DNA from: Agrococcus sp. ProA11
GTDB taxonomy: Bacteria; Actinomycetota; Actinomycetes; Actinomycetales; Microbacteriaceae
Reading direction: 5' to 3'
Assembly (NCBI RefSeq): GCF_039880525.1
Contig: NZ_CP156989.1
Span: forward strand, 744,001 to 808,000
Length of the DNA: 64,000 nucleotides
A model generated the notes under the pieces. It was given only the letters and a program-made list of their open reading frames with translations, was not told the DNA's origin and searched no databases. A program made the translations under genes and the position numbers. The number at the start of each line of letters is the position of its first letter. Position 1 is the first letter of the stretch. This document shows positions 10,064 to 25,337 of the stretch, piece after piece.

Positions 10064-10954
10064 TCAGCGCGCCGCACGTTGGCTGATCGCGTCTCGCGTG
10101 CGCCGCAGCGCCGAGATCGACTCGTCGTAGCGGGCTTGGGCGACGCCCGTGAAGAGGCAGTCGACGACCATGAGTTGCGCGATTCGGCTGCCCAGGGCGC
10201 CGGATCGGAACGGCGTCTCGCGGGCCGCGGTGCGCAGCACGACGTCGGCCGCCGCGGCCAGCGGTGAATGCTCGTGGTTGGTGATCGCGATCGTCACGGC
10301 ACCGGAGGCGCGCGCGATCCGCAGGTACTCGACCGTGTCGGTGGTCGCGCCGGAGTGCGAGACGGCGATGGCGACCGCGGTGGGACCCAGCACGGCCGCC
10401 GCGGTCCACGCCGCATGCGACTCCGGCCACTCGAGTGCGATGCGGCCGATCCGCGAGAGCTTGCGCTGCAGGTCGACCGCGACGATCGCGCTCGCCCCGA
10501 CGCCGTAGAGGTCGACGCGCTCCGCTGCATCGACTGCAGCGACCGCCCGTTCGAGCGACGCGATGTCGATCACCTGCGCGGTGTCGGCGATCGACATCGA
10601 CTCGTTGCGGGCGATCTTCGCGACGATCTCATGCATCCGGTCGTCGGGGGAGATGTCGGTCGGATACCCGGAGGCGTCGTCCGCCGCCATCCGTTCGCGG
10701 AGGTTCTGCTCGGTGAGGTCGTGCCGGAGATCCTTGAACCGGTCGTACCCGACCCTGCGCGTGAAGCGCACGACGGTCGTCGTCGACGTCGATGCGAGCT
10801 CTGCGATCTCGGCGATCGAGCTGGTAGCGAAGCCCTCCGGGTCGCTCAGCAGAGCCTCGCCGATGCGCCGCTCCGCAGGGCGTAGCGACGGCAGCAGCCC
10901 CCGGACCTCGACAAGGAGGGTTCCGGGCGCCGGGCGGGTAGGTGCGGCGCGCAT
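10064..10954 (-). CDS. MurR/RpiR family transcriptional regulator (HTH-SIS)
   Basis: A 296-residue regulator. Residues 10-90 are the RpiR helix-turn-helix domain (RPAERRIGEALLSDPEGFA then SIAEIAELASTSTTTVVRFTRRVGYDRF). Residues about 120-265 are a SIS sugar-phosphate domain (VDLYGVGASAIVAVDLQRKL; VAIAVSHSGATTDTVEYLRIA). The ATG at 10954 follows GAGAGGAG by six bases. SIS effectors in this family are phospho-sugars; E. coli MurR responds to MurNAc-6-P. It diverges from the operon that contains murQ, anmK and nagB, so MurNAc-6-P or GlcNAc-6-P is the expected inducer. No other regulator lies near that operon. Confidence 0.9.
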   Translation of the reverse strand: MRAAPTRPAPGTLLVEVRGLLPSLRPAERRIGEALLSDPEGFATSSIAEIAELASTSTTTVVRFTRRVGYDRFKDLRHDLTEQNLRERMAADDASGYPTDISPDDRMHEIVAKIARNESMSIADTAQVIDIASLERAVAAVDAAERVDLYGVGASAIVAVDLQRKLSRIGRIALEWPESHAAWTAAAVLGPTAVAIAVSHSGATTDTVEYLRIARASGAVTIAITNHEHSPLAAAADVVLRTAARETPFRSGALGSRIAQLMVVDCLFTGVAQARYDESISALRRTRDAISQRAAR

Positions 10955-11127
10955 CGCGCTCCTCTCGACGTCGCCACTGTAGCCGCATGGAAGTTTCGCG
11001 GGACAGCGCATGGAATGAAGTTACATACTCGTAATCTTTCGTGTACTTTTTATCCGTAGACTCGTCCGCAACGTCGCGGCACCTCGGTGCATCGGCTCGG
11101 AACCCATCCACCATCTCGGAGGCACCC
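10955..11127. promoter_or_regulatory. Divergent control region between rpiR/murR and the muropeptide operon
   Basis: This 173-base gap contains an AT-rich island (10990-11060) that contrasts with the GC-rich surroundings. Within it is a dyad TTAC-N6-GTAA (11021-11034) flanked by GAAG and CTTTC, which is a plausible RpiR-type operator. TAGACT (11057-11062) is a possible -10 for the operon, leaving a leader of about 60 bases. The ribosome site CGGAGG precedes the ATG at 11128. The assignments come from pattern only. Confidence 0.5.
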
Positions 11128-24154: not shown

Positions 24155-25337
24155 GCAGGAGGCGCAGCAGCGGCGCCTTCGCATGGGCGCGCTCTTCCTC
24201 GTATTCGGGTCGCTGGGTGCGTCCGCTGCTGCCATCCCGGCCACCTTGCCGGCCGCCATCGCCGACGCGCCGGAGGCAGCGGCCATCGTGGGAGCGGCGG
24301 TGCCAGCGCTCTTCGCTGGCGTGCTGGTGGGCGTCGTCCTCAGCGCATGGTGGGCGCGACCTCCGGTGCACATCGCGATCGCCGGGAGCGCGCTTCAGTC
24401 GGGCGCGTTCCTCGGCCTCCTGATCGCTGCGGGCCCTCACGCGATGATCGCTCTGGCCGCACTGGTCGGGGTGGGGTTCGGCCTCGTCGAGGCTTCGGCG
24501 ACCGGGCTGGTGCGCGACCTCGATCGCGCGTCGACCGCCCGACGGCTGACGGCACTGACCGGCACCGTCGCTATCGTCGCCGCCGCGTTGCCGCTCTCGG
24601 TCTCGATCCTCGCCCCGTCGGCGATCGCCAATGTGACCTACGTGATGGTCGCGGTGCTCCAGTGCTTGGCGGCGGTCGCGCTGGCGATCACAGCCCGCGA
24701 CCATGGGTCGACTCGACCCGAGCTGCACGTGGGGGCGGTGCGCGGTGCCGGAGGCGCCGAGCGGGCGCCGATCCGCTTGGCCGCGGCAGGCCTGGCGCTC
24801 GCGCTCGCGGTGGGCGCGGAGTCGGTGCTCGCGGGCAATTCGGCGATCGTTCCGTTCGTGCTGCTGGATCTCGATCCTTCGCATGCGGCCGTCGGCACCA
24901 CCGTGTTCTGGATCCTGCTCGCGAGCGGCAGGTTCGCCGCGTCGAGCGCAATGCACGCGGGCGCGACGGCCCGATTGTGTCTGGCGGTCGCGGGCGGGAC
25001 TGCCGCCATCGCGCTGCTGGTCGCCGCTGCGACGGTCTCCGTCGCGCCCGCGGCAGGCACCGGCGCCGCGGCACTCGCGGTGGTCGCGATCGGGCCGATG
25101 TATTCGCTGCTCATCGGTATGGCGCTGGAGGGAGCACGAGCGCGCTGGGCCGCCAGCGCGCTCATCGCCGCGGGCTCGACAGGCGGTGCGGCGCTGCCGT
25201 TCGCGCTGCTGCTTGCCGGGCTCGGAGCCGCCGATGCAGCGATGTGGATCGTGCTCGCTGCCGCGATCATCGGGACCGCGTGCATCAGCGCGATCGCGAG
25301 CATCGTCGCGAGGCGCCCGCATCATCAGGCCACCTGA
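24132..25337 (+). CDS. MFS-type transporter
   Basis: A 401-residue membrane protein with about 12 hydrophobic segments and few charged residues inside them. It starts inside the 3' end of the preceding gene: the ATG at 24132 overlaps it by 23 bases; a GTG at 24147 or an ATG at 24183 after GGAGG-like sequence are alternatives. The loop WWARPPVH after helix 2 and an Arg-rich loop between helices 6 and 7 fit the major facilitator fold. It closes the cell-wall salvage operon. Its substrate is unknown; a sugar, a small acid such as lactate, or a peptide breakdown product are all possible. Confidence 0.75.
   Translation: MRRTRVAEQEAQQRRLRMGALFLVFGSLGASAAAIPATLPAAIADAPEAAAIVGAAVPALFAGVLVGVVLSAWWARPPVHIAIAGSALQSGAFLGLLIAAGPHAMIALAALVGVGFGLVEASATGLVRDLDRASTARRLTALTGTVAIVAAALPLSVSILAPSAIANVTYVMVAVLQCLAAVALAITARDHGSTRPELHVGAVRGAGGAERAPIRLAAAGLALALAVGAESVLAGNSAIVPFVLLDLDPSHAAVGTTVFWILLASGRFAASSAMHAGATARLCLAVAGGTAAIALLVAAATVSVAPAAGTGAAALAVVAIGPMYSLLIGMALEGARARWAASALIAAGSTGGAALPFALLLAGLGAADAAMWIVLAAAIIGTACISAIASIVARRPHHQAT

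Follow-up and report, generated by a model that had tools for sequence, protein, structure and literature searches.

In Bacillus subtilis, the amidase AmiE is encoded in the murQ cluster; this PF00144 protein of the murR regulon cleaves between N-acetylmuramic acid (MurNAc) and L-alanine and does not hydrolyse intact peptidoglycan (PMC10653849, PMC5061867). Streptomyces coelicolor has MurQ and lacks MurP (PMC5061867), and a 2026 preprint refers to the MurNAc importer of mycobacteria as an unknown transporter (PMC13041923). Here we describe an operon of Agrococcus sp. ProA11 that supplies a concrete candidate importer, amidase and operator for actinobacterial muropeptide uptake. It occupies positions 10064..25337 of a 64,000-nucleotide stretch of contig NZ_CP156989.1 (positions 744,001 to 808,000, forward strand), which we call the window, and we put at roughly 0.72 the probability that it encodes a self-contained pathway for the uptake and catabolism of anhydro-muropeptides. 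A sequence-only reading of the window had proposed such a pathway. The dedicated uptake and breakdown operon is upheld by protein families and by conservation, while the statements on gaps at the amidase and at NagA, on MppA, on a carrier of the major facilitator superfamily (MFS) and on rarity are corrected below.

The genome is a single contig of 2.67 Mb and 99.99% complete. Gene calls and family profiles bear out both the existence of the operon and its proposed limits: eleven genes on the plus strand lie divergent to a regulator gene on the minus strand. Eight of these, permB through nagB, are joined by seven junctions that each overlap by 1-4 bases, and gaps of 46 bp and 58 bp separate sbp from permB and nagB from the downstream dehydrogenase gene. 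The centre of the operon is formed by murQ (14577..15494, GTG start), encoding the MurNAc-6-phosphate etherase (386.4 bits, cut-off 168; TIGR00274 354.5 bits, cut-off 302), and anmK (15494..16663), encoding the anhydro-MurNAc kinase (NF007146, 554.3 bits, cut-off 440). Within the operon, only these two enzymes appear assured by curated models; the regulator, NagB, the epimerase, the permeases and the fused ATPase belong to the expected families, yet score below the NCBIfam equivalog cut-offs. Levoglucosan kinase was considered as an identity for AnmK and ruled out, as it scores lower and the best solved match is the AnmK structure 3cqy.

A scan of genome contigs returned 229 AnmK relatives, the best 80 of which were used for neighbourhood counts; one locus (L131), identical in this region to that of Agrococcus casei LMG 22410 (L077), was dropped from pooled counts. 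The genes sbp, permB and permC adjoin anmK in 44 of these best 80 loci, and the linkage of importer and anmK is far beyond chance. An ATPase, fused or paired, is found in 43 of the 44 loci, the PF00144 hydrolase in 42 and murQ in 37; the epimerase occurs in 7 and nagB in 2 or 3. Most often the genes run murR, sbp, permB, permC, murQ, anmK, hydrolase and ATPase, with optional insertions, and in Pseudonocardia the ATPases are two genes that precede the hydrolase. Genera represented among the loci include Microbacterium, Nesterenkonia, Arthrobacter, Cryobacterium, Nonomuraea, Pseudonocardia, Streptomyces, Nocardioides, Jiangella and Desertimonas. Many Microbacterium anmK genes sit amid unrelated genes, which has no bearing on the operon. 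Pairwise distances of eight cluster proteins correlate over 35 loci, with r values from 0.66 to 0.95 that were calculated without a background from unlinked genes.

The importer consists of a substrate-binding lipoprotein (sbp, 11128..12681; SBP_bac_5, 279 bits; ATG start, LAGC lipobox), two ATP-binding cassette (ABC) permeases of the Dpp/Opp/Nik type and a fused double ATPase (18878..20500), which has two ABC_tran stretches in one chain. The first permease (permB, 12728..13699) carries BPD_transp_1 and its N-terminal domain, the second (permC, 13696..14580) BPD_transp_1; their best NCBIfam matches, Opp2B and Opp4C/Opp2C, remain under the cut-offs. The YejB model reaches 99.2 bits with the permease (cut-off 445), whereas Opp2B scores higher, with 277.5. 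For the ATPase, GsiA (507 bits) and YejF (502 bits, cut-off 834) are likewise under their cut-offs. The lipoprotein is 44-72% identical to 37 cluster relatives. Its earlier comparison with the murein peptide-binding protein MppA did not hold, with 68 bits for MppA against 145 for the best solved relative; because many other family 5 proteins are closer to the lipoprotein, MppA is kept as a loose analogy only.

One could suppose that oligopeptides in general, or metal chelates, are the cargo of this importer and that it is merely co-regulated with MurNAc catabolism, MurNAc or anhydroMurNAc entering through a different carrier, for instance the membrane protein at the end of the operon. The lipoprotein and the permeases are indeed members of the broad Dpp/Opp/Nik family that pass no specific NCBIfam cut-off, and the solved structures nearest to the lipoprotein are AapF, 5u4o and AgaA, not MppA. 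Against this stands the constancy of its gene neighbours, as AnmK, MurQ and the hydrolase accompany the importer both in Actinobacteria and on two plasmids of rhizobia that were read whole. A plasmid search for lipoprotein relatives of at least 39% identity gave 17 records, from Nonomuraea, Embleya, Rhizobium (14) and Allorhizobium (1), and in 15/15 rhizobial records, some of which are strains with near copies, murQ is matched no more than 300 bases away from the lipoprotein. The two plasmids read whole carry murR, murQ, sbp, permB, permC, a fused ATPase, a PF00144 protein (checked in one of them) and anmK. A more distant lipoprotein gene (32% identity) on a Deinococcus peraridilitoris plasmid, with two permease genes, faces a GntR-anmK pair that has no murQ nearby. 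The last membrane protein, for its part, occurs in only 10/99 loci, the window included. Taken together, we consider a general-peptide importer distinctly unlikely.

The rhizobial clusters are divergent members of the set, their AnmK being 35% identical and their hydrolase scoring 131-133 bits with the cluster profile, barely above an unrelated solved PF00144 protein (119); a plasmid search with the hydrolase gave 3 records only. On a plasmid of D. deserti, GntR-anmK-murQ is faced by ABC genes, and anmK of Thermomicrobium has a serine hydrolase gene next to it. Separately, a plasmid of Paenibacillus guangzhouensis (L155, 2265-12615) has, annotated in one run, a MurR/RpiR regulator, MurQ, a sugar ABC transporter, AnmK, a GNAT protein, a PIG-L deacetylase, a DUF1343 protein and a BadF-type ATPase, a Bacillota counterpart.

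The type of importer was then compared with the enzymes encoded beside it, pooling four locus sets and counting distinct loci. The PF00144 hydrolase is present in 49/53 loci with the peptide importer against 1/12 loci with a sugar-type ABC importer (Fisher 1.7e-8, uncorrected for relatedness). In three of the four misses (L060, L112, L133) a contig end truncates the locus, so that L032 is the sole true one. Conversely, a GH3 hexosaminidase is found in 5/12 sugar-type loci against 1/53 peptide-importer loci, and a BadF-type kinase in 7/12 against 0/53. The split of hydrolase and GH3 between the locus types therefore indicates that the importer type goes with the enzyme set. This pattern is as expected if a peptide-type importer brings in peptide-bound sugar, which requires an amidase inside the cell, while a sugar-type importer brings in sugar free of peptide. 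The sugar-type loci represent a second layout (L119-L124, L100, L139-L141, L143, L144), in which a sugar-type ABC importer and anmK occur with murQ (11/12), GH3 (5) and the BadF-type kinase (7). In a third (L113-L117, L098), an MFS carrier (Sugar_tr/MFS_1 in L098) stands beside anmK, with murQ, nagB and often a flavin adenine dinucleotide (FAD)/Fe-S dehydrogenase.

An amidase had been listed among the gaps of the route, and this gap is probably filled by the operon's own SxxK serine hydrolase (17742..18881; PF00144 Beta-lactamase, 126 bits), a protein of the Pfam family that also includes AmiE, with the frequency in importer loci given above. It is a candidate amidase for the MurNAc-L-Ala bond. 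Residues S62 and K65 and the triad Y148-S149-D150 are invariant across 44 aligned sequences, window included; in its PF00144 domain, SxxK motif and tyrosine the protein agrees with the AmiE type. The class C beta-lactamases have the motif Y-x-N. The invariant Y-S-D of the hydrolases thus argues against a beta-lactamase-like protein, one form of the alternative that the hydrolase is a D,D-/L,D-carboxypeptidase, an esterase or a beta-lactamase relative and no amidase. The N-termini also speak against this alternative, as they lack the look of a signal peptide in 50 sequences including that of the window (judged by eye without a predictor, from our own start calls). What speaks for this alternative is PBP4B, encoded in the E. 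coli murQ operon (PMC5061867), whose model matches weakly, with 25.7 bits for the window protein and 40.7 bits for that of L048. Moreover, no Amidase_2 domain was detected in the genome (6/14 control genomes were positive), so that without an amidase activity of the hydrolase this family would not be there to free MurNAc from peptide ahead of AnmK and MurQ. We therefore hold a function other than amidase to be unlikely.

In 12/99 mapped loci, anmK is separated from the hydrolase gene by one for a GNAT acetyltransferase. GNAT domains are also fused to the PF00144 hydrolase (L048:11155-12693, L068:11173-12795) or to the epimerase (Embleya, L153:4574-6142). Possible targets of the enzyme are the released peptide or a deacetylated sugar.

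AnmK itself is scarce. Across the phylum it was found in 17/396 genomes (E<=1e-30), in the family in 19/199 (E<=1e-70; 22 when three weak ones of under 25 bits are counted) and in the genus in 4/24. All four genus genomes have the cluster, one of them split across two contigs. The 18 family neighbourhoods besides the window comprise five importer clusters, six sugar-type importers and seven with neither or a partial set; 15 further neighbourhoods in the phylum comprise one importer cluster, five sugar-type importers, eight with neither and one in which anmK was missed by the gene caller. When the lipoprotein was searched in the 396 genomes of the phylum, scoring three candidates in each, three matches at E<=1e-60 were obtained: the window, a 45%-identical protein beside murQ in the same cluster as anmK, and a 34%-identical one. 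The suggestion that AnmK with an Opp-type importer is uncommon in a Gram-positive thus stands as far as AnmK is concerned, but not for the pairing, which recurs across actinobacteria and in Rhizobium. The cluster looks like a widespread, little-studied scavenging kit of actinobacteria, and root-nodule bacteria have a related one. In the closest genome of the same genus (L130:12397-15926), two reading frames are needed to align nagA, and likewise the ATPase gene, which reflects either an assembly error or decay.

These frequencies also bear on the source of the substrate, which the sequence-only reading had left between the cell's own turnover, by Rpf enzymes, and pieces shed by other bacteria. 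A single Rpf transglycosylase domain is encoded in the genome, in keeping with the first part of that proposal and with the idea that the operon mainly serves housekeeping, in the manner of AmpG or YejBEF-YepA, by recovering what the cell's own wall turnover releases. A core route, however, would be expected to be less patchy than the AnmK counts in genus, family and phylum. This patchy occurrence suggests accessory nutrient scavenging more than housekeeping recycling, and the latter seems to us somewhat unlikely as the main function.

The remaining enzymes of the route were assigned with varying precision. The nagB-like gene (20497..21261; Glucosamine_iso) encodes a candidate glucosamine-6-phosphate deaminase with 293.7 bits for NF001684 (cut-off 326) and 200.6 for TIGR00502 (cut-off 236.9). 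NagA had been reported missing; it is absent from the operon, but a nagA-like gene is located elsewhere, at ~2.166 Mb (192.7 bits, under the cut-off of 225.65), and in three relatives (L025, L028, L118) and the same-genus L130 nagA directly follows nagB. The gaps listed at NagZ and LdcA hold for the whole genome at the domain level, which has no GH3 domain (10/14 control genomes positive) and no S66 domain (6/14 positive); GH20 is not found in it either (4/14 positive). With neither GH3 nor S66, the imported ligand is therefore probably already free of N-acetylglucosamine (GlcNAc), which, GH20 being absent as well, is probably removed outside the cell or by a family outside the search.

The gene at 16663..17745 encodes a candidate dipeptide (L-Ala-D/L-Glu) epimerase of the MR_MLE enolase type, with the B. 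subtilis L-Ala-D/L-Glu epimerase 1jpm as its best solved match (242 bits). It does not reach the NCBIfam equivalog cut-offs (173.5 of 500 and 120.7 of 343). When aligned to 1jpm, it retains the K-x-K motif and the D/E/D positions, which we take to be the catalytic lysines and the metal ligands, as well as D-x-D. Microbacteriaceae often have Gly or Ser in place of L-Ala as the first stem residue, and the true dipeptide of the enzyme may therefore differ. Near three clusters, an M19-type membrane dipeptidase look-alike is encoded (L025:16349-17323, L028:3441-4448, L097:5398-6441; named by eye, no NCBIfam match), which possibly acts on the freed stem peptide.

The protein encoded at 21320..24154, described earlier as D-lactate-dehydrogenase-like, is an FAD-linked oxidase fused to an Fe-S/CCG module (FAD_binding_4, FAD-oxidase_C, Fer4_8, CCG) and kin to glycolate, D-lactate and D-2-hydroxyglutarate dehydrogenases. 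Its gene is present in 15/99 clustered loci and shares the neighbourhood of murQ in eight of 18 family loci, four of these without the peptide importer. Since MurQ releases D-lactate as a product (PMC5061867), this location fits a D-lactate oxidase; the description suits in this respect, while no specific cut-off was reached.

The operon ends with a polytopic membrane protein (24132..25337, with possible starts at 24132, 24147 or 24183), for which a simple hydropathy scan gives 14 hydrophobic stretches, some of them overlapping. Its designation as an MFS carrier is not supported, as neither a Pfam nor an NCBIfam match was obtained, nor a Pfam match for its homologue in L024. The protein recurs in or near the operons of L024, L032, L039, L049, L058, L065, L085, L109 and L110, and could be an exporter of by-products or a second carrier.

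The divergent regulator gene (10064..10948, minus strand; alternative start up to 11011) encodes a MurR/RpiR-family protein (Pfam SIS 82.8 bits, HTH_6 44.4 bits), which scores 120.9 bits with the NCBIfam MurR equivalog (cut-off 408). An opposite-strand murR lies by the importer genes in 40/44 cluster loci (37/44 at other thresholds). Using a palindromic expectation-maximization motif search of 34 bases over 54 sbp upstream regions (53 distinct), we obtained half-sites like AAAgTTAC around an unconserved 18-base spacer, with a motif score of 683 compared to 331-341 in three base shuffles (fewer restarts) and 337-352 in five dinucleotide shuffles (equal restarts). In the window, the predicted operator is an imperfect palindrome between murR and sbp, GAAGTTAC-N18-GTACTTTT, at 11017..11050. 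A model held out from Agrococcus and two Microbacterium loci (47 regions) placed this site first in the 64 kb in 6/6 runs of 40 restarts, with 33.8 bits, the next site that does not overlap it having 10.3; one held-out run of 25 restarts settled on a shifted solution (11032-11065, 17.7 against 12.3). Training on 37 regions without known Microbacteriaceae loci again gave 11017-11050, at 32.0 against 11.4. With up to two mismatches the operator pattern matches once in the genome, as does a reversed control pattern. A promoter consensus scan of the murR-sbp intergenic region returned no match.

On this basis, a route can be proposed. Rpf or other lytic transglycosylases, of the cell itself or of its neighbours, would release 1,6-anhydroMurNAc-peptides, GlcNAc being lost outside, and the lipoprotein with its Opp-type ABC importer would carry the anhydroMurNAc-peptide inward. 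The cytoplasmic PF00144 serine hydrolase would cleave between MurNAc and the first residue of the stem, after which AnmK would open and phosphorylate anhydroMurNAc to MurNAc-6-phosphate, to be split by MurQ into GlcNAc-6-phosphate and D-lactate. The FAD/Fe-S enzyme would convert D-lactate to pyruvate, NagA (encoded elsewhere) and NagB would lead to fructose-6-phosphate, and peptidases with the dipeptide epimerase would turn the L-Ala-D-Glu part into L-amino acids. The MurR-like protein would hold the operon repressed at the 34-bp palindrome until MurNAc-6-phosphate builds up.

Several observations weigh against this reading. Seven of the 44 importer loci are without a nearby murQ, the sugar-importer locus L140 has the hydrolase while the uncut importer locus L032 lacks it, and a good operator site is lacking (under 6 bits) in six of the 54 upstream regions. 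Esterases, beta-lactamases and carboxypeptidases also belong to PF00144, and the hydrolase profile has a mix of esterases, peptidases and beta-lactamases as its solved relatives. The NagA and NagB matches lie under the curated cut-offs, and for GlcNAc removal no hexosaminidase of GH3 or GH20 is encoded in the genome, GH18, GH73, GH84 and NamZ not having been searched. Finally, the substrate of the importer and the amidase activity of the hydrolase are both points that we infer from sequence.

If the reading is correct, some actinobacteria and rhizobia would take up intact anhydro-muropeptides and not free sugar alone, which bears on the nutrient flow from dead bacteria and on the immune-active muropeptide left in habitats. 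We would go further only tentatively, at somewhat less than even odds, and propose a dedicated family of Opp-type anhydro-muropeptide importers, distinct from YejBEF-YepA and AmpG, that extends across Actinomycetota and rhizobial megaplasmids and is packaged with an intracellular amidase of the beta-lactamase fold, AnmK, MurQ and a MurR operator. GNAT, fused to the amidase or the epimerase in several lineages, would add an undescribed acetylation step there, and in actinobacteria that possess the family it would supply the importer still missing from muramic-acid recycling. A description of the actinobacterial gene set was not found in the open-access literature, including the accessible sections of PMC9790009, PMC5061867, PMC13041923, PMC6572805, PMC10653849 and PMC13209645, which is weak evidence of novelty.

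With the AnmK-MurQ-NagA-NagB route of E. coli, the locus shares AnmK, MurQ, a NagB-like protein, a RpiR/MurR-type regulator divergent from the murQ operon and the expected product fructose-6-phosphate. It differs in that an Opp-type ABC importer would take the role of AmpG or MurP in entry and that a PF00144 amidase candidate stands in the place of AmpD; in addition, the genome is without a GH3 (NagZ) or S66 (LdcA) domain, and the FAD/Fe-S dehydrogenase and the epimerase are encoded inside the operon. The binding protein YepA of Agrobacterium tumefaciens is of the peptide-type family. YejBEF-YepA resembles the present system as an ABC importer whose binding protein feeds AnmK (PMC9790009), but the window permeases are Opp/Dpp-like and not of the YejB kind (99.2 bits, cut-off 445). 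Recycling in A. tumefaciens is proposed to proceed via AnmK, MupP, AmgK and MurU, with the gene of YepA unlinked to the transporter genes and MurQ not mentioned in the accessible text (PMC9790009). The B. subtilis cluster murQ-murR-murP-amiE-nagZ-ybbC likewise unites MurQ, MurR and a PF00144 protein (PMC5061867, PMC10653849). There, however, amidase and NagZ act extracellularly and MurNAc enters by a phosphotransferase system, whereas the window hydrolase has no evident signal peptide and AnmK would replace phosphorylation by that system. MurNAc recycling in M. smegmatis has an actinobacterial AnmK, MurQ and NagB (PMC13041923), with counterparts here in AnmK, MurQ and the NagB-like protein; where the importer of mycobacteria is called unknown in that source, the window operon encodes a candidate. 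The operon would work much as a combination of the AnmK-MurQ route of E. coli, the amiE cluster of B. subtilis and the ABC importer of Agrobacterium, and as a whole is a member of none of these systems.

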